This document shows, one piece after another, positions 2,527 through 51,400 of a stretch of DNA of 64,000 nt (the stretch's first letter is position 1; each line of letters begins with the position of its first letter). Below the pieces are notes generated by a model that was not told where the DNA came from, ran no database searches, and saw only the letters and a list, made by a program, of their open reading frames with translations. Source of the stretch: Corbicula japonica (Eukaryota > Mollusca > Bivalvia > Venerida > Cyrenidae); NCBI GenBank assembly GCA_038501625.1, contig JAZAYU010000012.1, positions 2,232,001 through 2,296,000 on the forward strand, given 5' to 3'. Position numbers and translations under genes: made by a program.

Positions 2527-3734
2527 ATAAAACCAAATATCCTCTATGCATTCGACAACAGTACATTAAGAGCATTTAAAATTATAACTAGGTCTTTTTT
2601 GGAGCACAAATGGTTAAAAAAAACAACTTTAAACGCATTACCCATTTGGTTTAAATGATAATATTTATGAAGAAGGCGACTTTTTAAAAAATCCTGATTT
2701 TGACATTTTCGATTTGCTTGAAAAACGAAAATAAAAATCGCGGTCTCACAGGGTAAGGACAAATGGTAACATCAAGGAAAAATCGCATGTTCATTGATAC
2801 GTTCTGGTAGAAGAAAAATAAATTCTGATAAACACGGTATGCTTTCACGTTTAGCTTCTCTTTTTAGCAAATTTACAGAAATTGAATGTTGAATAATGAA
2901 GTTACAAGCCTTACTCAGTGTTGCACACTGCATTTTCTCAGACCACACATTAATTTGGAACCTAATTATCTAAGGCATTTTCTGAACGTCTCTTTTTTAG
3001 ATGAAGAAATATATTATACTGACATTCTAAGTTCATTTAAGGATACAACTTTTGAATCGGCTGTATCTTATTATTTAAAAAATACTGTTATAAATACATG
3101 ATACCAACTAGAAACACAATTTTCAATTACAATAAAAATTTCTTATAAAAACTGATATTTCCATTGAGAAGTAGCGGGAAGTTAAAATGACAGAAGGCTG
3201 TTCATAGCTTCTCAGGCCTTGAAGTTGTTTTTCTGTAAGCCACACCTTTCGATATTTCTTCACTGCTCCATTCAAATCTTTAGAAAACTAAATTTTCAGT
3301 TAAATATTCGCAAGGAGAATGAACCCACAGTGACCTGACAAAAAATTGACTGGCTGCAAAACCTCATACTAATTTGGATGTAGAATGCAGTGTCTTCTGA
3401 TTGGAGTGGCAGTTCTAATAGTAGTTGAATGACGAAACACATTTATCGGCCTCTTGTAAAGTGTTGCAGCGCAGCAGATACTTATGAAGGTCGCTCGCTG
3501 GGTCAATTTCTAATTGAAACCGAAAGTATTATTTCGACAGTCAAAGTTTACAGACAATATAAGGGCCAGCTAACATGTTGCAAGTTGATAAAGCCATGTT
3601 TTCTCGAAAAGTACTGAACACAGAAACAAATATAACTTGAATCTGCCATAAGACGATCCTTCGCTATATGTGTAATCACATATTATCACGTGACTTTATA
3701 CTGATCCATAATTTGTTATTATAACTTATATAAA
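2527..3734. other. Intergenic; one small unassigned open frame
   Basis: A 71-codon plus-strand frame at 2886-3101 has no recognisable domain and no clear splice context, so it is not called as a gene. Nothing else is evident. Confidence 0.4.
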
Positions 3735-3880
3735 TGTCACGGTACGAATCTAGTCACTCTCTGGGGAGAAGATGTGTAAGCGGCCCGGATAGCTCGGTCG
3801 GGAGAGCACTCGCCCTGTAAGCGAGGAGTCCCGGGTTCGAGTCCCGGTCTTGGCTGCACATTCTTTCTCACCCTGTGACA
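3735..3880 (+). repeat. TRIM LTR1 (146 bp)
   Basis: Begins TGTCAC, ends GTGACA, and carries the tRNA-like unit at 3783-3855. It differs from LTR2 by one extra T in the acceptor arm. Confidence 0.85.
3783..3855 (+). tRNA. tRNA-like sequence inside LTR1 (tRNA-Lys-like body, atypical loop)
   Basis: It folds as a cloverleaf. The acceptor GCCCGGA pairs imperfectly with TCTTGGC; the D arm is GCTC/GAGC, the anticodon stem CTCGC/GCGAG and the T stem CCGGG/CCCGG around TTCGAGT. The A-box region and the B box GGTTCGAGTCC are intact, so RNA polymerase III could use it. The loop reads CCTGTAA, giving a nominal TGT anticodon, but C replaces the near-universal T33, so it is unlikely to decode. The first 26 bases closely resemble eukaryotic tRNA-Lys, from memory. 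Similar copies occur in the other three LTRs. Confidence 0.6.
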
Positions 3881-3882
3881 TT

Positions 3883-3901
3883 TGGCGCCCAACGGGAGAC
3901 C
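3883..3901 (+). promoter_or_regulatory. Primer-binding-site-like sequence after LTR1
   Basis: TGGCGCCCAACGGGAGACC starts 2 nt after the LTR end. Its first eight bases complement the 3' end of lysine tRNA (…GGGCGCCA), as in lysine-primed retroelements. The same box follows LTR2 (from 4148) and LTR3 (from 4410). Confidence 0.7.
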
Positions 3902-4000
3902 GTGATAGCTAGCAGGTTCGGCCACCAGCCTGTAATAGCAAATTAAATACACGTTACTCTCTGGAATTCGAGGGCGAATTTCCAAATTTGAGGGGGTGTA

Positions 4001-4145
4001 TGTCACGGTACGAATCTAGTCACTCTCTGGGGAGAAGATGTGTAAGCGGCCCGGATAGCTCGGTCGGGAGAGCACTCGCCCTGTAAGCGAGGAGTCCCGG
4101 GTTCGAGTCCCGGTCTGGCTGCACATTCTTTCTCACCCTGTGACA
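4001..4145 (+). repeat. TRIM LTR2 (145 bp)
   Basis: Begins TGTCAC and ends GTGACA. The tRNA-like unit starts at 4049 and is identical to LTR1 apart from one missing T in the 3' acceptor strand. Confidence 0.85.
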
Positions 4146-4265
4146 TTTGGCGCCCAACGGGAGACCGTGATAGCTAGCAGGTTCGGCCAGCAGCCTGTAA
4201 TAGCAAATTAAATACACGTTACTCTCTGGAATTCGAGGACGAATTTCCAAATTTGAGGGGGTGTA

Positions 4266-4408
4266 TGTCACGGTACGAATCTAGTCACTATCTGGGGAGA
4301 AAATGTGTAAGCGGACGGATAGCTCAGTCGGGAGAGCACTCGCCCTGAAAGCGAGGTGCCCGGGTTCAAGTCCCGGTCTTGCTGCACATTCTTTATTACC
4401 CTGTGACA
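4266..4408 (+). repeat. TRIM LTR3 (143 bp)
   Basis: The ends are conserved. The tRNA-like unit is more diverged: its acceptor 5' strand is shortened and the anticodon loop reads CCTGAAA. The B box GGTTCAAGTCC is intact. Confidence 0.8.
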
Positions 4409-4526
4409 TTTGGCGCCCAACGGGGGACCGCGACAGCATTGCTTGTATGTCTTAAGACGCACGCAATTGTGTATGGAAAGTACCATCTGGAATTCGAGGA
4501 CGAATTTCCAAGTTGTGGGGGAATAA

Positions 4527-4670
4527 TGTCGCGGTACGAATCTAGTCACTATCTGGGGAGAAGATGTGTAAGCGGCCCCGAAAGCTCAATCGGGAGAGCA
4601 CTCGCCCTGTAAGCGAGGCGTCCCGGGTTCGAACCCGGTCTGGCTGCACTTTCTTTCTCACCCTGTGTCA
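4527..4670 (+). repeat. TRIM LTR4 (144 bp), right end of the array
   Basis: Begins TGTCGC and ends GTGTCA. The tRNA-like unit keeps the anticodon stem and a B box (GGTTCGAACCC), but the A-box region has changed. It is followed by TAAA, matching the bases before LTR1. Confidence 0.8.
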
Positions 4671-4796
4671 TAAAGAAGATGCGAATCGTGGTCGTGCATT
4701 CTTGTGGGGCATTCACATTGCGATTAGGAGCCGACACAGTCATCTTTCACGTTCATCTATAAAATATAGGAATATTGTTGTTGAATGAATATACAC

Positions 4797-18927: not shown

Positions 18928-20271
18928 TTAGTTTTCCTTTTGTGTACGTTTAAAAACTTTGCTAACAATTCCTGCCCCAATTGCTAATCCGACCACTAAT
19001 CCAGCTGGTCCTCCGACTGCTGCACCAACGGCTATGGACGTTCCCAAAAGATTTGCTCCGGCAATTCCGCCAATACCTCCGACTGTCGTAAGACCTATTG
19101 TCGATGACGCTACAGTCATCACTTTCATAATAGCATTCCCTTTTTTCTCTTTTTCTTCCCTCTCTTCTCGCTCTTCTCTCTCTTTTTTCTCTCTCTTTTC
19201 TCTTTGTTCCCTCTCTTTTTCCTTCATCTTTTTTCTCTTTTTCCTCTCTCTTTTCTCCCTCTCTTCTCTTTCTTCCCTCTCTCTTTCCTCCCTCTCTTCT
19301 CTTTCTTCCCTGTATTTTTTCAAACTCTCTTCCATTTCTTTCATTTTTTTATCTTGTTCCTCCCTCAATCTTTTCGCTATCTCTCTTTCCTCTTTCTCTC
19401 TCTTCTTTTTTTCTTCTTTTACCATTTTCTCTCTTTCCTTTCTTTCTTTTGTTTCTGCTTCCTCTTTCATTATTCTTTGCCTCTCTTCGGCTTTGGCCTT
19501 TTCCAAATTTATATTGAGGGTTCGGAGAAGATTCACAATCTCTTTTTGAAGATTATCGTATTGTTCAATTTGATTTTCCAACGTCTGACGATGGGTATTT
19601 AAAAAATCATTTTTAAAGACAGTCTTTCCATCGTTGGACACAGATTTAACGCATCTGATGAGTTTGCCAAACAGCTTTTTCGTTGTGTGTATGCTGCACT
19701 GTCTCTCAACATCATTCTCTATTCTTATGACACGACCGTTACATCGTGCAACAAGGAATTCGAGTGTAGCATTTGATCCACAAAACGACGCTAACGCATT
19801 ATCTTCTTCTTCGTTGTCATTTCGCTCATCATATTCATCGCAACCCTTGCTTAATTCATCGTCGGTTATCCTATACCTTTTACAGTTGTTGCAACCGTAT
19901 GTAAGAACAACAATGCTATGATTAAAAAATGTATCCCCAAAAATAATCTCCAGCAAATCTATTGTCATTTTATCATCATTTGAAAGGCGTCCCATTTTGA
20001 AAACAAGAAGAAACGCGTGCGGTTCCTTGCGAATTTCAAGGACAGACTTCTGAATTTCCAAAGCCCTTTGTCTTAATGGTGCTTCAGAATCACACAGACC
20101 TGGAGTATCTACAATAGTCAGGCCCAATGCGTCATTTTTCTCTGACTGACAGGAAGTAGTGACGGCACTGGCACAATCATCAGCTTTAAAACGTTGTCCC
20201 TCAACAAGTGTGTTGCAAGTTGAGCTTTTCCCAATTCCAGTTTTCCCGACGACTATTAACCGAAGGCCCAT
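18928..20271 (-). CDS. AIG1/GIMAP-type GTPase with long coiled coil and hydrophobic tail
   Basis: 447 residues from the ATG at 20271; the frame continues a few codons upstream, but only from TTG. Residues 1-210 are an AIG1 GTPase domain: P-loop GKTGIGKS at 9-16, a Thr-bearing switch near 38-39 and DTPG at 55-58. The usual G4 motif (TRxD type) is replaced by VLTYGCNN, so guanine specificity may be altered. Residues about 230-395 are an almost unbroken Glu/Arg/Lys-rich helix, a predicted coiled coil. Residues about 400-440 are Gly/Ala/Val-rich and hydrophobic, a likely membrane or self-association segment. GIMAPs are membrane-linked GTPases of immune cells and are expanded in molluscs, where they respond to infection. 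A minus-strand acceptor (TTTGCAG) lies just 5' of the start, so an upstream exon is likely. Family is certain by motif; function in this animal is inference. Confidence 0.85.
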   Translation of the reverse strand: MGLRLIVVGKTGIGKSSTCNTLVEGQRFKADDCASAVTTSCQSEKNDALGLTIVDTPGLCDSEAPLRQRALEIQKSVLEIRKEPHAFLLVFKMGRLSNDDKMTIDLLEIIFGDTFFNHSIVVLTYGCNNCKRYRITDDELSKGCDEYDERNDNEEEDNALASFCGSNATLEFLVARCNGRVIRIENDVERQCSIHTTKKLFGKLIRCVKSVSNDGKTVFKNDFLNTHRQTLENQIEQYDNLQKEIVNLLRTLNINLEKAKAEERQRIMKEEAETKERKEREKMVKEEKKKREKEEREIAKRLREEQDKKMKEMEESLKKYREEREEREEREREEREEREKRERKKRKKMKEKEREQREKREKKEREEREEREEKEKKGNAIMKVMTVASSTIGLTTVGGIGGIAGANLLGTSIAVGAAVGGPAGLVVGLAIGAGIVSKVFKRTQKEN

Positions 20272-20761
20272 GCTTCTTTTCTGCAAACGATTACCACGTG
20301 CATTAAAAATTGTCTAAACAGCACAGAATACCACAAGAAACACATAGTTTGAAGTTATAATCAACATAACTTTTTAGTTACGATGGAACTGCATTATATG
20401 GAGAATATACATGCATCTTTGCCTAAAATGCATTTTTGAACGCATAATATCGGTTAATATCGACCCTAGTATCAAATCATATACTAAAAAGATGATCATT
20501 TCTGTAGTTTTCGGTAGCTATCTTATGCTTTCTGAATATATTAAATTGAAATGTGGTCTTTTGGACTTATTTTCATAAGAAGCTGACATAAGAGGCATGT
20601 TCAAAAAATTATGCAAACACATTGTACACTCGAATACCACGACATTTACGTGTATAAAACCAGTACAAACCGGTTCATCGCTCATTGCTGTTAAATGCGA
20701 TTGAATATACATGTAAATGAAATCCACAAATCGGTTCCTTTGCACTTTAGATTATTTTCAG

Positions 20762-22699: not shown

Positions 22700-25164
22700 A
22701 TTGTATCATCTACCAAGATTTCAAGATTTTATTCATACTCTCAATACATGAACACATGTAAATATGAGGAACACAATATATATATTGTAAATAATAAACG
22801 AGGATTCGAGAAAATAAATATAACATATCCAACAAAACATTCGCGGGAGAAATACATATTGCGTCATAAACTAAAAAATAATAGGATTTTAATGTTATTA
22901 AAGAAACTTTACTGAAATTTCATAATAATATCTTTTACAAATATGCAAAACTTCCGGTATTCAGAAAAATTATTTAAATTCATGTTCATTAATTTGTTAA
23001 ATTTCACAATATTGGGTCTTGTATAGTATTCAGTTTTTAACGTTTGTTTCCGTTTATCAGTAAAATCTGGGCATTCTAATAAATAATGATATTCGTCACC
23101 GATTGTTAGATTGCATAAAGTACATTTTCTTTCATTTAAAGGTGTTCTATTCCATTGTCCAGTCTCAATAGGAAATTTGTGGTTTCGTGTACGAAATTTA
23201 ATTATATATTTCAAATAATTGTTTGGTGTTTTAATAAGGTAATTTTCAAATCCAAAGTTGTATTTAAATAATCGATAATTTTTGCAACTGCTTGCATTAT
23301 CTAAATTTGAGTACCAATCATTTAGGAAAATATCTTTTAATTTTTGTTTAACCGTTAGTGTAAGCCATTTAATGTTTGGAAAGTCATGAGTATCCCAGAT
23401 ATTATTCATACCACATATTACAAAAATGCTTTTTAATTCGTTTATCCAAAGAAAGTTATGATTAAGGTTTACGTCTGAATATTTAAAATAGCTGAGCAAC
23501 AATGCATACATATTGTTACATAGTTTCTCTTGAGATGGACAAACCAATTTAGCCCAAAAGCTTACCATTCTACTTTTTATTTCAATTGACAGTGGCATAG
23601 TTCCTGTCTCACCATAGACAATACAATTCGAAGTGCAAGTCTTAACATTTAGAATATGCTTTAAAAATTTTAGTTGTACCCTTTCTAGTACGTCAAGATT
23701 ACCAAAACCCCAAATTTCACAACCATATAGTAATATTGGTTTAACAATTTTTGAAAAAAGTTCAATTTGTAAATCTATTGGAAGGCATAGGTCTTTTGCT
23801 TTTTTGATGAGGGAATACATGGCTATAGTGGCTTGTTTTGCGATTTCTTGTTTAGCTTTATAAAAAGATCCTGATCTGCTGAATAATATACCTAAATATT
23901 TATATTCATTTACAATTTCAATCGGTTCATTTTTATAGACAAAATGATAATTACGTTGTCTACCTTTGGAAAATATAATGATTTTTGTTTTATTCAAATT
24001 CAATTGTAATTTCCAAATGTCACAATAACTGGCATATGTATTTAAAGCGGCTTGTAAATCTTCCGCCGAATCAGCAAGAAGCACTGTATCATCAGCATAC
24101 AAAAGTATGCATAATTTAACAAATTTAATGGCTGTTTGTTCTAATTCATGTTTGTTACAAACAATACCTGAAACGTTGTTACTATTAATAATAAAGTCGT
24201 GCAAATCATTAAGGTATAATGAAAATAACAGGGGCGATAAGTTCTCGCCCTGTCGTACTCCTATATTACATGGAAAGAAGTCTGATTTTTTGTCATTAAT
24301 AAATACACATGACTTAGCCTGTTCGTACATATTTTTTATAATTTGTAAAAAATTTCCATTTATATCATTCATATTGAGTTTTGCCCAAAGTCCACTTCTC
24401 CAAACAGTATCAAATGCGGATTTTAAATCAATAAAAGCACAAAACAAAGGCTTTTTACTCCTTCTTACTATTTCCAAAAGTGAATTTAAAATAAAGATAT
24501 TATCTGAGGTAGAGTAACCTTTTCGAAAACCCGCCTGGAATTCGTTAATAATATTGTTTTCATTACAATACTTTTGTAGTCTAAGATTGAGAATCATTGT
24601 GAATAATTTGCCTAAACAGCTCAATAATGTTATTGGTCGGTAATTTGTAGGATCGATATGGCTCCCTTTGTTCTTAAATATTGGGTGGATTATTCCAACA
24701 GTCCAAATTTGTGGGATTTTTCCAGTACTGAAAATAATATTGAAAAGTTTAACTAGAACTAATTTCATTTTTGGTATTGAAAATTTGATATATTCATTGA
24801 GTATATTATCGGCTCCGCTAGCTTTATTATTTTTAAGGTATTTAACTGCTTCTAAGAGTTCAGTTTCTGTGATAGGTTGATTTATTTCTTCATTGTTTAA
24901 ATTATTGAAAGGTTCATTATTAATTGTTTCTTCAGTCTCGTCTTTAGCACTCTGATTTTTGAAAAAACTATATAAATCTTCTAAGTCCGCATCTGTTTTC
25001 TTTTTTTTCTTACCGCTCAATATTTTCCAAAAGTCTCTACCGGATATAGCGCACTGATTGACACAAAAACATAGTAAACAGTTCAAAGATGAGGACATTA
25101 TGTATGTATTGTAATGACAAATCCAATCGGCAAATACATGTTCAACAGGCGTTTCTCGTAGCAC
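22700..25164 (-). mobile_element. LINE (non-LTR retrotransposon), 5'-truncated copy
   Basis: Contains the reverse-transcriptase frame 22909-25164 and a 3' tail on the minus strand ending in ATAAAATCTTGAAATCTTGG, short repeats of the type used as LINE 3' ends. No endonuclease domain precedes the RT, so the copy is 5' truncated, probably near 25050-25160. A second copy of the family is at 35805-36990. Confidence 0.75.
22909..25164 (-). CDS. LINE reverse transcriptase ORF2 fragment
   Basis: An open frame of up to 751 codons; the outermost codon is GTG, not a credible eukaryotic start. It contains the RT fingers (NYRPITLLSCLGKLF), the motif-A region FIDLKSAFDTVWR, GVRQGENLSPLLFSLYLNDL and the catalytic YADD at about residue 356 (codons 24088-24099). 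Downstream are NEYKYLGILFS and a C-terminal zinc-knuckle-like CTLCN…H…C segment. The frame is uninterrupted, which points to a young insertion, but without an endonuclease it cannot act alone. It primes reverse transcription at a nicked target in the nucleus. The clade (L1/Tx1-like versus others) is not certain. Confidence 0.75.
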   Translation of the reverse strand: MLRETPVEHVFADWICHYNTYIMSSSLNCLLCFCVNQCAISGRDFWKILSGKKKKKTDADLEDLYSFFKNQSAKDETEETINNEPFNNLNNEEINQPITETELLEAVKYLKNNKASGADNILNEYIKFSIPKMKLVLVKLFNIIFSTGKIPQIWTVGIIHPIFKNKGSHIDPTNYRPITLLSCLGKLFTMILNLRLQKYCNENNIINEFQAGFRKGYSTSDNIFILNSLLEIVRRSKKPLFCAFIDLKSAFDTVWRSGLWAKLNMNDINGNFLQIIKNMYEQAKSCVFINDKKSDFFPCNIGVRQGENLSPLLFSLYLNDLHDFIINSNNVSGIVCNKHELEQTAIKFVKLCILLYADDTVLLADSAEDLQAALNTYASYCDIWKLQLNLNKTKIIIFSKGRQRNYHFVYKNEPIEIVNEYKYLGILFSRSGSFYKAKQEIAKQATIAMYSLIKKAKDLCLPIDLQIELFSKIVKPILLYGCEIWGFGNLDVLERVQLKFLKHILNVKTCTSNCIVYGETGTMPLSIEIKSRMVSFWAKLVCPSQEKLCNNMYALLLSYFKYSDVNLNHNFLWINELKSIFVICGMNNIWDTHDFPNIKWLTLTVKQKLKDIFLNDWYSNLDNASSCKNYRLFKYNFGFENYLIKTPNNYLKYIIKFRTRNHKFPIETGQWNRTPLNERKCTLCNLTIGDEYHYLLECPDFTDKRKQTLKTEYYTRPNIVKFNKLMNMNLNNFSEYRKFCIFVKDIIMKFQ

Positions 25165-43034: not shown

Positions 43035-45018
43035 AATAATAAAACTAGAATGATGTGTTCCGCGGAACACGTGTCGCCTGCATGGAAAAAGTTGAAATGT
43101 GGGCCTATGTTTAATCATAAATCATAAAAATATTTTATTTAAGTTGATTTCAATACTACACCACACAACACATGTGTCATCTAAATTGCATTTAAAGGGG
43201 GATTACTAAAATAATGGTAAAACCTGAGTTATCATCTTCAAAAATTGGTTTGTAAATGCAGATGAGTTATTCAACGTATTAAGTGAATTAATTGAACAAG
43301 TACCTTCCATTTTACAGGCAACACTAACTTTCATGTTAAAGTTGCATTTGAAAGGGACATAACTCATAAAATATTTAAACTGGAGTTATCATTCTTGTCG
43401 TCACAGATGGCATTGTTCATGCTGATAATATATTCCAAGTATGAAGTGAATTGGACAAGTACTTTCAAAGTTATAGGCAACATTAAGTTTCAGGTTAAAG
43501 TTGCATTTGAAAGGGGCATAACTCAAAAAATATTGAAACTGGAGTTATCATTCTTGTCGTCACAGATGACATTGTTCATGCTGATGATATATTCCAAGTA
43601 TGAAGTGAATAGGACAAGAACTTTCAAAGTTATAGGCAACATTATGTTTCATGTAAAAGTTGCATTTGGAAGGGGCATAACTAAAAAAATATTGAAACTG
43701 GAGTTATCATTCCTATCGTCAAAGATGGCATTGTTCATGCTGATGATATATTCCAAGTACGAAGTGAATAGGACAAGTACTTTCAAAGTTATAGGCAACA
43801 TTAAGTTTCAGGTTAAAGTTGCATTTGAAAGGGGCATAACTCAAAAAATATTGAAACTGGAGTTATCATTCTTGTCGTCACAGATGGCATTGTTCATGAT
43901 GATGATATATTCCAAGTATGAAGTGAATAGGACAAGTACTTTCAAAGTTATAGGCAACATTACGTTTCATGTTAGAGTTGCATTTGAAAGGGGCATAACT
44001 AAAAAAAATTTGAAACTCGAGTTATCATTCCTATCGTCACAGATGGCATTGTTCATGCTGATGATATATTCCAAGTACAATGTGAATAGGAAAAGTACTT
44101 TCAAAGTTATAGGCAACATTAAGTTTCAGGTAAAAGTTGCATTTGAAAGGGGCATAACTAAAAAAATATTGAAACTGGAGTTATCATTCTTGTTGTCACA
44201 GATTGCATTGTTCGTGCTGATGATCTATTCCAAGTATGAAGTGAATTGGACAAGTTCTTTCAAAGTTATAGGCAACATTAAGTTTCAGGTAAAAGTTGCA
44301 TTTGAAAGGGGCATAACTCAAAAAATATTGAAACTGGAGTTATCATTCTTGTCTTCACAGATGGCATTGTTCATGCTGATGATATATTCCAAGTATGAAG
44401 TGTATGGGACAAGTACTTTCAAAGTTAAAGGCAACATTAAGTTTCAGGTTAAAGTTGCATTTGAAAGGGGCATAACTCAAAAAATATTGAAACTGGAGTT
44501 ATCATTCTTGTCGTCACAGATGACATTGTTCATGCTGATGATTTATTCCAAGTACGAAGTGAATAGGACAAGTACTTTCAAAGTTATAGGCAACATTAAG
44601 TTTCAGGTTAAAGTTGCATTTGAAAGGGGCATAACTCAAAAAATATTGAAACTGGAGTTATCATTCTTGTCGTCACAGATGACGTTGTTCGTGCTGATGA
44701 TAAATTCCAAGTATGAAGTGAAAAGGTCAAGTACTTTCAAAGTTGTAGGCAACATTAATTTTCAGGTTAAAGTTGCATTTGAAAGGGGCATAACTCAAAC
44801 AATATTGAAACTGGAGTTATCATTCTTGTTGTCACAGATGGCATTGTTCGTGCTGATGATATATTCCAAGTATGAAGTGAATATGACATGTACTTTCAAA
44901 GTTATAGGCAACATTAAGTTTCAGGTTAAAGTTGGGAGACTACCGGATGACGGCACTGACAACGCCGCCGCCGGACTATTGGATCCCTATGTGTCTACCT
45001 GCTATCGCAGGCGACACA
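43035..45018 (+). mobile_element. Pearl-like family A, copy 1: about ten 159-bp tandem units
   Basis: The left end has the palindrome GTGTTCCGCGGAACAC then GTGTCGCCTGC. Ten or so units of 159 bp follow. The right end is GACGGCACTGACAACGCCGC and a hairpin (arms TGTGTC/GACACA and CCTGC/GCAGG, 44990-45018). The last 11 bases, GCAGGCGACAC, are the inverse of the left end. Because 159 is a multiple of three, one frame stays open for 544 codons. The substitutions between units change amino acids freely, so this is read as non-coding. Confidence 0.75.
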
Positions 45019-45146
45019 ATGATATGTAAGACAAACAATAAACAGAAAGCTAGAATTTTATTGTATTTTTATGTCATTTTTCCATGACAAATGTCTTTCA
45101 CTGACCTAGACAACAGTTTTTTTTATTTATTTATATATGTCAAAAC

Positions 45147-46641
45147 AACTAGAATGTTGTGTTCCGCGGAACACATGTGTCGCCTGCTTGGAAAACGTTG
45201 AAATGTGGGCCTATGTTTAATCATATATAATAAAAATATTTTATTGAAGTTGATTTCAATACTACACAACAGAACACATGTGTCATCTAAATTACATTTA
45301 AAAGGGGAATAACTAAAATAATGGTGAAACCTGAGTTATCATTTTCAAAAATTGTTTTGTAAATGCAGATGAGTTATTCAAAGTCTTAAGTGAATTAATT
45401 GAAGAAGTAATTTCCATTTTACAGGCAACACTAAGTTTCATGTTAAAGTTGCATTTGAAAGGGATATTACTCATAAAATATTGAAACTGGAGTTATCATT
45501 CTTGTCATCACAGATGGCATTGTTAGTGCTGATGATATATTCCAAGTACGAAGTGAATAGGACAAGTACTTTCAAAGTTATAGGCAACATTAAGTTTCAT
45601 GTTAAAGTTGCATTTAAAAGGGGCATAACTAAAAAATATTGAAACTGGAGTTATCATTCTTGTCGTCACAGATAGCACTGTTCATGCTGATGATATATTC
45701 CAAGTATGAAGTGAATAGGACAAGTACTTTCAAAGTTATAGGCAACATTAAGTTTCAGGTTAAAGTTGCATTTAAAAGGGGCATAACTCAAAAAATATTG
45801 AAACTGGAGTTATCATTCTTGTCGTCACAGATGGCATTGTTCGTGCTGATAATATATTTCAAGTATGAAGTGAATAGGACAAGTACTTTCAAAGATATAG
45901 GCAATATTAAGTTTCAGGTTAAAGTTGCATTTGAAAGGGGCATAACTCAAAAAATATTGAAACTGGAGTTATCATTCTTGTCGTCACAGATGACATTGTT
46001 CATGCTGATGATATATTCCAAGTATGAAGTGAATAGGACAAGTACTTTCAAAGTTATAGGCAACATTAAGTTTCAGGTTAAAGTTGCATTTGAAAGGGGC
46101 ATAACTCAAAAGATATTGAAACTGGAGTTATCATTCTTGTCGTCACAGATGGCATTGTTCGTGCTGATGATATATTTCAAGTATGAAGTGAATAGGACAA
46201 GTACTTTCAAAGTTATAGGCAACATTAAGTTTCAGGTTAAAGTTGCATTTGAAAGGGGCATAACTCAAAAAATATTGAAACTGGAGTTATCATTCTTGTC
46301 GTCACAGATGGCACTGTTCATGCTGATGATATATTCCAAGTATTAAGTGAATAGGACAAGTACTTTCAAAGTTATAGGCAACATTAAGTTTCAGGTTAAA
46401 GTTGCATTTGAAAGGGGCATAACTCAAAAAATATTGAAACTGGAGTTATCATTCTTGTCATCACAGATGGCATTGTTCGTGCTGATGATATATTTCAAGT
46501 ATGAAGTGAATAGGACAAGTACTTTCAAAGTTATAGGCAACATTAAGTTTCAGGTTAAAGTTGGGGGACTACCGGACGACGCCGACGCCGCCGCCGGACA
46601 ATAGGATCCCTATGTGTCTACCTGCTATCGCAGGCGACACA
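45147..46641 (+). mobile_element. Pearl-like family A, copy 2: about seven 159-bp units
   Basis: Same build as copy 1: palindrome at about 45158-45174, TGTGTCGCCTGC at 45176-45187 and its perfect 12-bp inverse GCAGGCGACACA at 46630-46641. Before the hairpin comes GACGACGCCGACGCCGCC. Units are very similar to each other, suggesting recent expansion. The open frames at 45639-46346 and 46347-46604 are shadows of the repeat. Confidence 0.75.
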
Positions 46642-48420: not shown

Positions 48421-51400
48421 CTGAAAATAGATAAAAGTAATATTAAAGTACCATCATTGAAGCTGTATAGGCCGAAATTCTTTTTTTATTTTATCTTTTG
48501 AAAGTCAAGGATGTGGCAAATACTAACTTAAGGTATACTGGTATTTGTAAACATTTAAATAAGATTTTTACTGAATTTTGTCTAATTTAATAAATCTATA
48601 TTAGGTGACATTGAGAAGGAGGTATGCCATTATTGCACTGGTGATGATGCATTTGATGGTTTTATCTGAAAATTCACTGTTGCCTTAGTAAACACAACTT
48701 TTGTATTACTAGATAGTGCCTGTCTGCTAAACAATAAACACACTTACCTCTCTAAAGAAAGTCCCCAAGCAATTGCATTAACGCCTTCTGGGAGTCCCAT
48801 GGGTAACAACATTTCTGGTCGAAATATACCTGAATTACCTATCTCCACCCATTTCTGTAAACCTGAAATTTAAAAGAAAAATTGTAATGTCTACTAAACT
48901 ATAAACTACATGTATAATTTGACACCATAGTTATATAAAGATGCAAACATCTTGTTTGGCTGTAACATACCCAGTACACAAATAGTGAAAGAAATGTTAT
49001 AATGTTTATAAGAACAGTGTAATTTTATCTGAACCCAGCCTTCATACTGAATTTGGGCTCATTTTGGGAGCCTACAGTCAGGTGTGGCCACAGATAGAAA
49101 AAGAGAACCGATCTACGCATACGCTGTTTAGAATATTAAAAGAGTTTTCACAGTCAAAAGCGGTAATATGTCTGGATTCGTGTGAATCTGTTGATGAGTG
49201 TTTAGAACATTGGCAATCTAGATTTCTCGAAATTGTAAATCACCACATGCCTCTTCAAACTAAACGAGTAAAACGAAGGTATCAACCAGATTGGTTTTCC
49301 GAAGAAATAGCTAATGCAATAAAAGAACGCGATCTGCTTTCTTCTGACAAATCCTCTAACGAATACAAATCTAAAAGAAATAAAGTTTTGTCACTTATTA
49401 GGGAAAACAGGAAAAACACTTATTCCAAAAAAATTGAGGATGGTAAAGATGACCCGAAAACCATTTGGAACATTTTCAAAGAATTTGGCACAAAATCTTC
49501 TCAGCCTTCCAAAATATGCAACTTAAATGTCAACAGCGAAATCTTTAGCGATGAAACAGAAATAGCAAATGCTTTTAATAATTTTTTCGTTACTATAGCT
49601 GAGAAATTGAAAGATCCAATCATAGTATCCAGTTTCGAATATATAATTGATTACGTTAACTTGAAGGTTCCTCCTGAAAATTATTTTTCTATTCCTTTAA
49701 TATCCGAACGTGAAGTCTGCAAATATCTACACAATCTCGATGTCTCTAAGTCGACCGGTCTAGATACAATCGGACCTCGTTTATTAAAGAAAGCCGCACC
49801 GTTTATATCAGAAGCGTTAACTATGATTATAAATAGAAGTATTTTACAGTCATCTTTTCCAAATTTATGGAAATCTGCCAAAATCAAACCTTTATTCAAA
49901 AGTGGTGACAAAGATTCAATTAACAATTACAGACCTATTTCAATTCTCCCAACTGTATCTAAAATTATCGAAAAGCACGTGCACGATGCTCTTATGTGTC
50001 ACATCAACAACTTCAACTTACTTCACAATACTCAAAGCGGTTTTCGGAAGCAACATTCAACCGAAACTGCACTGGCATATCTAAGGGAAACTTGGCTCAG
50101 CGCTATAAACGAAGGCAAAGTCATTGGCGCATTATTAGTGGACTTTAAAAAGGCATTCGATTTAGTTGATCACGATTTTCTTATCAAGAAACTTAAAATA
50201 TACAAATGCAACAATTCAAGCATCGAATGGTTTAGGTCCTACTTGTCAAATCGCCATCAGCGAGTGCAAATTAACAACCAGCTCTCTAGTCATGAAGAAA
50301 TTTTAACTTGCGGTGTGCCTCAGGGATCTATTCTTGGCCCTTTGCTTTTTCTTATATTTATAAACGACCTTCCTCTTGCTATCGGGCACGCAATTTGTTC
50401 AACCGATCTTTATGCCGATGATACAACCATTTATGATATTCAAAGTGATAAGAGCATTCTAGAATCTAATTTAAATACAGCTCATTTTAGTTTACAAAAA
50501 TGGTGTGCAACCAATGGCATGCAAATCAATACTGATAAAACCAAAGTAATGTTTATTTCAACACAACAAAAAAGACGGCGCTTTGAAAGCGATCAGATCT
50601 CTTTATTCTACAAAGATTTTAAAATTGATCAAAGTTCATGTGAAAAAATATTGGGAATCCATTTTCAAAATAACTTAAAATGGGATATCCATGTAAAAGT
50701 TATATGCAGAAAAATATCCTCTTACATTTGGCTTCTGTCAAAAATTAAGGACTTCCTTCCAATTAATTCTAGAACATTGTTTTACAAGGCATATGTACAA
50801 CCACACTTAGATTATTGTTCTATATTGTGGGGAAATACAGTAACTCGAAATATTAAAATGATTCTTAAATTACAGAAAAGAGCATGTAGAACCATCTTAG
50901 GCAATGAATACATTGATTTTGACTCAGCTCTACAAAAATTAAATATTCAAAGGTTTGATCAAAGACTTATTTTTAATATAGCTGTTTTTATGTACAAAGT
51001 AGCCCACAATGTCTTACCTGATTATATTTGCAATATGTATGTTCCTCGTGACCAATTACAATTCGAAAATTATACATTACGATCCCATATTAACCATAAT
51101 TTTTGTATTCCAATGCCACACTTAGAATTATATAAAAATAGTTTACTTTATTCAGGCAGTTGTTTATGGAACAGAATTCCTAAAGAAATAAAAGATGCTT
51201 CTACTGTAGACAACTTTAAAACTTTGTATCTAAAGTGGAATGGATGATTCATTGTTTAGTTCCTTTTATATTTTATATTCACATTTTGATGTTAAGATAA
51301 GAAATAATGTATAATATTGCCTCAATGAAACAGAAATGTGTTGAGGCATGTATATAAAAATACATTGTGTATTATTGATTTATGTTCTCAAATTTCTTAA

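Follow-up and report, generated by a model that had tools for sequence, protein, structure and literature searches.

Terminal-repeat retrotransposons in miniature (TRIMs) with a tRNA-like sequence in their long terminal repeats (LTRs) were named Helenus by Kojima (2024, PMC10886601), who reports them from six animal phyla, fungi, and a lycophyte, including 51 families in five bivalve orders. As described there, Helenus elements have a primer-binding site (PBS), a polypurine tract (PPT), 4-bp target-site duplications (TSDs) in animals, and solo LTRs, at total lengths of 311 to 1263 bp, and the fish family LTR-11_DR forms tandem arrays. In that paper, molluscan Helenus LTRs are aligned to tRNA-Lys-TTT, a Lys primer is listed among the bivalve families, seven bivalve families receive a tRNA-Thr call, no complementarity is found between the tRNA-like part and the PBS, an autonomous Gypsy element is given as the mover of Helenus, and such elements are noted to inflate predicted tRNA gene counts in fungi. 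Our literature search for tRNA-bearing retrotransposons of this kind (Helenus, also TRIMp3) found nothing related beyond that paper. Here we analyze an array at positions 3735 to 4670 of a 64,000-nucleotide stretch of Corbicula japonica DNA (contig JAZAYU010000012.1, positions 2,232,001 to 2,296,000 of the forward strand; hereafter, the window), which we identify with high confidence (roughly 93%) as a member of Helenus, a noncoding TRIM with a tRNA-Lys-like sequence in its LTRs.

Two other groups of TRIMs resemble this element in part. Cassandra (Kalendar 2020, PMC7215508) is likewise gene-less, has an RNA polymerase III (pol III)-type sequence in its LTRs, and forms tandem LTR-internal arrays, but it is known from plants and carries 5S rRNA where the window element is tRNA-like. 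We rejected Cassandra on the grounds that all four matches above the Rfam gathering score in the window are to tRNA, not 5S rRNA. The bivalve biv-TRIM (Satovic 2019, PMC6934838) occurs as solo repeats and as TDRx_I(x-1) arrays, with repeats of 202 to 218 bp, an inner part of 77 to 80 bp, a PPT that is mostly GGGGAGA, and no clear PBS; the available sections of that report mention no tRNA-like sequence in the repeats. This candidate was rejected too, given window repeats of 143 to 146 bp, internal parts of 118 to 120 bp, and a different PPT. tRNA-derived short interspersed elements (SINEs) share A and B boxes with the window LTR but have no LTRs, PBS, or fixed 4-bp TSD. With Helenus, the window family shares tRNA-like LTRs, a PBS and PPT, the 4-bp TSD, a Lys primer, a tRNA-Thr call, solo LTRs, and tandem arrays, while its two PBS versions for different Lys isoacceptors and its arrays mixing two internal types set it apart from Helenus as described in the sections consulted. 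We file it as a new Helenus member, placed by published Helenus traits rather than by comparison with named family sequences. The preliminary description of this DNA had proposed a miniature LTR retrotransposon with a tRNA-like sequence in every LTR, which is borne out by dispersed copies, TSDs, and an 18/18 PBS match in the third internal part; its suggestion that a tRNA-bearing animal element would be a distinct, new solution is superseded by Helenus.

The array reads LTR-internal-LTR-internal-LTR-internal-LTR (LTRs of 146, 145, 143, and 144 bp), with the following features.

3731-3734, strand not assigned: left TSD, TAAA
3735-3880, + strand: LTR1, 146 bp, tRNA-like part at 3783-3855 (BLAST and Rfam)
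3881-4000, + strand: internal part INT1, type A, 120 bp, G-rich end GAGGGGGTGTA at 3990-4000 (sequence)
3883-3900, + strand: PBS of INT1, matching host tRNA-Lys-TTT (gene L129) at 17/18 and tRNA-Lys-CTT at 15/18 positions
4001-4145, + strand: LTR2, 145 bp, tRNA-like part at 4049-4121 (Rfam)
4146-4265, + strand: INT2, type A, 120 bp, G-rich tract at 4255-4265 (sequence)
4148-4165, + strand: PBS of INT2, 17/18 to host tRNA-Lys-TTT
4266-4408, + strand: LTR3, 143 bp, tRNA-like part at 4313-4384 (Rfam)
4409-4526, + strand: INT3, type B, 118 bp, G-rich tract at 4515-4526 (sequence)
4411-4428, + strand: PBS of INT3, 18/18 to host tRNA-Lys-TTT gene L129
4527-4670, + strand: LTR4, 144 bp, tRNA-like part at 4575-4646 (Rfam)
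4671-4674, strand not assigned: right TSD, TAAA

This layout, the PBS-like boxes after the first three LTRs, the G-rich tracts before the last three, and the outer TAAA copies are all as first described, whereas the TGTCAC...GTGACA ends hold for LTR1 to LTR3 but not for LTR4, which starts with TGTCGC and ends with GTGTCA. LTR1 and LTR2 differ by one gap and no substitutions; LTR3 and LTR4 show 10 differences each from LTR1/LTR2 and 15 from one another. INT1 and INT2 are 98% identical, and since INT3 resembles them at both ends only, we distinguish two element types, A (INT1-like internal part) and B (INT3-like), arranged A, A, B. Just after the 5′ LTR lies a putative PBS complementary to a host tRNA, and before each following LTR purine runs of GAGGGGG or GGGGGAA, then TGTA or TAA, would form the PPT, both as in Helenus. 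BLAST searches with LTR2, INT1, and INT3 found no further copy in the window. Among the best 40 of 422 candidates for the left flank (3440-3734), there was no second full-length copy, and an ~80-bp dispersed repeat was the only recurrence; hence, no empty site was found for this insertion.

Every LTR was said to contain a cloverleaf-capable sequence, and Rfam tRNA (RF00005) indeed matches all four, at 52.3, 48.7, 49.8, and 40.3 bits for LTR1 to LTR4, all exceeding the gathering score of 29. With ARAGORN, only LTR1 and LTR2 yield a tRNA call (Thr, TGT). Aligned with three host Lys tRNAs, the tRNA-like part is identical at 51/73, 53/74, and 57/75 positions, with alignment scores of 79 to 84 and shuffle maxima of 35 to 36 (200 shuffles each). 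A tRNA-derived sequence inside the LTR, the trait that defines Helenus, is thus indicated by both comparisons. Searches outside the clam were uninformative: short matches to phage records (6 records) start in the tRNA-like part, neither the PBS pattern nor the hairpin pattern occurs in viral contigs (0 each), and a 17-base U3 pattern occurs in 6 viral and 4 bacterial-genome stretches. The hairpin at the 3′ end of the internal part folds no better than shuffles (z 0.32).

We searched the genome (1.07 Gb, 1630 contigs) with LTR1 and scored the best 40 of 1580 first-look candidates (96 to 100% identity); as these are the most similar candidates, the resulting counts are lower bounds. Two were the window's own, and the other 38 fell at 33 places, all of which were read, with single-LTR, two-LTR, and three- to five-LTR forms; copies with up to six LTRs occur in the genome. 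The solo, two-LTR, and multimeric copies that the preliminary description suggested counting all exist. Two-LTR copies measure ~410 bp with an internal part of ~120 bp, noncoding and within the Helenus length range. The 33 places and the window yielded 37 element groups, of which 23 were intact (both outer LTR ends present, no internal part or PBS beyond them) and 14 were left out of the TSD count. Exact 4-bp TSDs flank 15 of these 23 copies, against 3/506 for mispaired flanks, distributed as 3/5 single LTRs, 9/14 two-LTR copies, 2/2 three-LTR copies, the four-LTR window array (1/1), and 0/1 five-LTR groups. Duplications of 4 to 5 bp had been suggested; among 17 first-batch copies, the 4-bp length stands (10/17) and the 5-bp length does not (0/17, as for 3 and 6 bp). 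A second sample was anchored on the PBS (loci were taken from the first 30 of the 74 sites, with 10 repeat loci excluded, giving 22 groups, 16 of them intact) and has exact TSDs in 8/16 copies (mispaired, 6/240), for a pooled 23/39 (mispaired, 9/746). These statistics show that the family integrates with 4-bp target duplications. LTR-LTR divergence ranges from 0 to 15% in 29 pairs.

The PBS comes in two versions. The window-type pattern with its neighbors occurs at 74 genome sites, 71 with GGGGGACC and 3 with the one-change variant GGGAGACC, two of the latter lying in the window. A second version, found at 45 sites, is exactly complementary to the final 18 bases of tRNA-Lys-CTT; reversed-pattern controls gave 0 for each version. 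Six host tRNA-Lys genes were read from the best 40 of 921 candidates: all three CTT genes (L126 to L128) predict the PBS TGGCGCCCAACGTGGGGC, the TTT gene L129 predicts TGGCGCCCAACGGGGGAC, and the TTT genes L130 and L131 predict neither 18-mer. Elsewhere in the genome, eleven tRNA-Lys matches are regularly spaced at 2403 bp (C6:5707987-5732089). Of 20 CTT-type sites read, 17 follow a Helenus LTR of the window family, 1 belongs to another LTR family, and 2 combine type-B-like internal sequence with different DNA upstream. Both versions share the same LTR and internal background, with differences only within the 18 nucleotides (nt). We infer that host tRNA-Lys-TTT and tRNA-Lys-CTT are both used as primers. 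Since the two 18-nt versions match genes of these two host tRNAs, the primer seems to overwrite the PBS; reverse transcription of a primer tRNA stops at a modified base near position 58, and in the simplest interpretation, copying of the primer replaces the PBS during insertion as far as that base. How LTR elements change their tRNA primer is a mechanism described as unknown by Kojima (2024, PMC10886601), and our literature search on primer switching between isoacceptors in LTR retrotransposons listed only a review of tRNA functions, a thin basis for calling the two-version PBS unpublished.

The Lys-TTT PBS also occurs without its following C, at 8 genome sites. Three follow a Helenus LTR (L135, L138, and L139), one follows another short TGTCAC...GTGACA stretch (L133), and four follow a different LTR end (GTGTAACA in L132/L136, GTGTTACA in L134/L137), then ATT. 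Because the CTT-type site L106 has the same flanks as L134 and L137, with the difference confined to the 18 nt, both PBS versions also occur in this second LTR family. At L136, the region ~3.2 to 4.4 kb downstream of the PBS contains a frame with matches to Pfam PNMA above the cutoff (E 1.5e-7) and to Retrotrans_gag below it (E 4.4e-4); a neighboring frame matches a zinc knuckle (E 0.0011, below the cutoff). Such LTR elements with Lys PBSs, one with gag-like frames downstream, are candidate helpers for Helenus. A Gypsy family at the chimeric locus L023 (53 candidates, best 40 scored) has a hairpin and PPT similar to those of the Helenus family, but was dropped as a helper because its PBS is not of Lys type in 3 of 4 stretches, those holding the LTR end; its pol-like fragment, recognized by eye, had nothing convincing in Pfam or PDB sequences. 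Locus L023 itself is a mosaic (reverse complement, ~1381 to past 3115) that combines two Gypsy-like LTRs with a Helenus copy and a pol-like 3′ end; one of its junctions falls near position 22 of the Helenus LTR and another at a PBS-like stretch, and its outer flanks are unmatched.

Several loci carry unusual junctions. In L021, L023, L024, L029, L104, L105, L111, and L135, the LTR end is followed by TT and the PBS or a tRNA-Lys-like tail, then by other DNA; these look like insertion of, or recombination with, strong-stop DNA, and no TSD was seen directly after the LTR in L021, L024, and L029. The tail after the PBS core in L024 resembles, by eye, a reverse-complemented tRNA-derived SINE, followed by a possible TGTG duplication. 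In L111 (with L118/L119) and L135, the LTR-PBS is joined to the reverse complement of the first 50 to 62 bases of another Helenus LTR, with the inverted junction near the start of the tRNA-like part, and L043 and L044 hold inverted partner copies. At L133, a type-B-like internal part follows a 54-bp stretch that starts with TGTCAC, ends with GTGTGACA, and lacks any obvious tRNA-like sequence; this may be a TRIM whose LTR is very short.

We read nine distinct arrays with at least three LTRs: L030, L035, L044, L051 (L057 is the same place and was counted once), L060, L065, L069, L072, and the window. Types A and B are mixed in 7/9; L065 and L069 are type A only. Exact TSDs surround L030, L035, L069, L072, and the window array, including four of the seven mixed arrays, and none was found at L060 or L065; L044 belongs to an inverted composite with matching outer flanks, and L051 is truncated. 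Because multimers often keep one TSD and often mix types, we propose that many probably arose from concatemeric complementary DNA (cDNA) or when cDNA recombined into a copy already in place. Multimers of cDNA have been mentioned in a review as mediators of Ty1 mobility (PMC5371812), and for Cassandra arrays, recombination and concatenated cDNA are treated as mechanisms that are not mutually exclusive (Kalendar 2020, PMC7215508). An array produced in full by a single reverse transcription should have similar outer LTRs, an expectation that could be compared in eight arrays. By total differences, the outer pair is closest only in L069, where the inner LTR differs. Some inner LTRs of L044 and L065 lack diagnostic bases that the two outer ones have in common, with total differences not decisive; L035 offers no information, L060 is ambiguous, the comparison in L051 is incomplete, and the expectation fails in L030 and the window. 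Among exact PBS sites, the CTT type makes up 8/13 of those that come first in an array and 3/16 of later ones (Fisher p 0.027; 0.031 with array C1382, TTT then TTT, added; 0.037 minus two widely spaced pairs), with 34 CTT and 56 TTT among lone exact sites. Counting only exact sites, of which the first need not be the first unit, this enrichment is suggestive only.

Combining these observations, we arrive at a broader scenario, to which we would give slightly less than even odds: the Helenus family and the second LTR family switch freely between two tRNA-Lys isoacceptors, since the primer used in any round of reverse transcription can overwrite exactly 18 nt of the PBS, and multimeric RNAs are reverse transcribed and integrated whole, with only the first PBS rewritten. 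In the life cycle we propose, the tRNA-Lys-like sequence in the LTR would probably act as a pol III promoter, the RNA would depend on proteins of an autonomous LTR retrotransposon for packaging and copying, reverse transcription would be primed by either tRNA-Lys (shown indirectly by the 18-nt PBS copies of both), integration yields the 4-bp duplications, and many multimers would form through cDNA as above.

The window array has a tandem period of 265 bp (Tandem Repeats Finder: 3.6 copies, 89% matches, score 1427) with a tRNA fold in each unit, as would a mere cluster of tRNA genes or a tRNA-derived satellite that never retrotransposed. The preliminary description would have yielded to such a picture of tandem tRNA genes only, with no LTR ends, PBS, or TSDs. 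We rejected it as scarcely credible in view of the dispersed single-LTR and two-LTR copies and their TSDs, and the PBS immediately downstream of the LTR, in versions for two tRNAs, also counts against it. A subtler alternative accepts a Helenus element but attributes all array growth to unequal crossing-over among the LTRs of one locus. The single internal type of L065 and L069 would suit this, as would the near identity of LTR1 with LTR2 and of INT1 with INT2, which looks like a unit duplicated in place. Against it, exchange at one locus cannot add a second type, and 7/9 arrays are mixed. The four mixed arrays with exact TSDs, a fifth (L044) with matching outer flanks, the CTT bias at the first PBS, and the mutually closest outer LTRs of L069 also count against it, and we consider it improbable as a general account. 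The TSD would not survive a simple exchange between loci; mixed arrays may also stem from gene conversion between loci. For the window array, the lack of substitutions between LTR1 and LTR2 points to a recent in-place duplication of an LTR-A unit on an older A-B array.

By analogy with Cassandra, and as Kojima proposes, the tRNA-like part is probably a pol III promoter. It may instead be the remnant of a SINE that once landed in an LTR transcribed by pol II and is now a passenger, a reading we regard as rather unlikely. It draws on the one or two nonstandard acceptor-stem pairs in the Rfam match of each of the four tRNA-like parts, on A and B boxes that, across the family, show no greater conservation than the LTR as a whole, and on Kojima's proposal (2024, PMC10886601) that the tRNA-like part originated by SINE insertion. 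Several observations weigh against our account as a whole. Variation across 107 LTRs is 0.069 in the A box and 0.041 in the B box, above the LTR mean of 0.037, and across 43 PBS-anchored LTRs it is 0.074 and 0.076 versus 0.050; since these are decaying copies of one family, with those beyond the 43 coming from similarity-chosen places, this variation is not informative about selection. TTTT is absent from the element's sense strand, which says little because 10% of shuffles likewise lack it; TTTT occurs in 3/107 LTRs and TTCTTT in 98/107, and one might speculate that the latter is a weak terminator. Exact TSDs are absent from 16/39 intact copies, no helper is proven beyond candidates, and the two outer LTRs of the window array are not the closest pair, so that this array is not simply one fresh concatemer insertion.

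The remainder of the window holds a reading frame for an AIG1-type GTPase with a long charged tail (18928-20286, - strand), for which plasmids gave no match, two RVT_1 reverse transcriptase frames of 751 and 727 amino acids (aa) (22909-25164, - strand, and 49064-51247, + strand), and two open frames of an ~50-aa unit repeated by eye, probably a tandem repeat (43395-46346, + strand).

Copies across one genome, together with TSD statistics, support the view that tRNA-bearing TRIMs move as LTR elements, and the mixed arrays that carry a single TSD are relevant to the formation of TRIM arrays. Primer choice may have left a natural record in the two versions of the PBS; if primer switching with PBS overwriting is true, genome sequence alone would record which tRNA primed each insertion.
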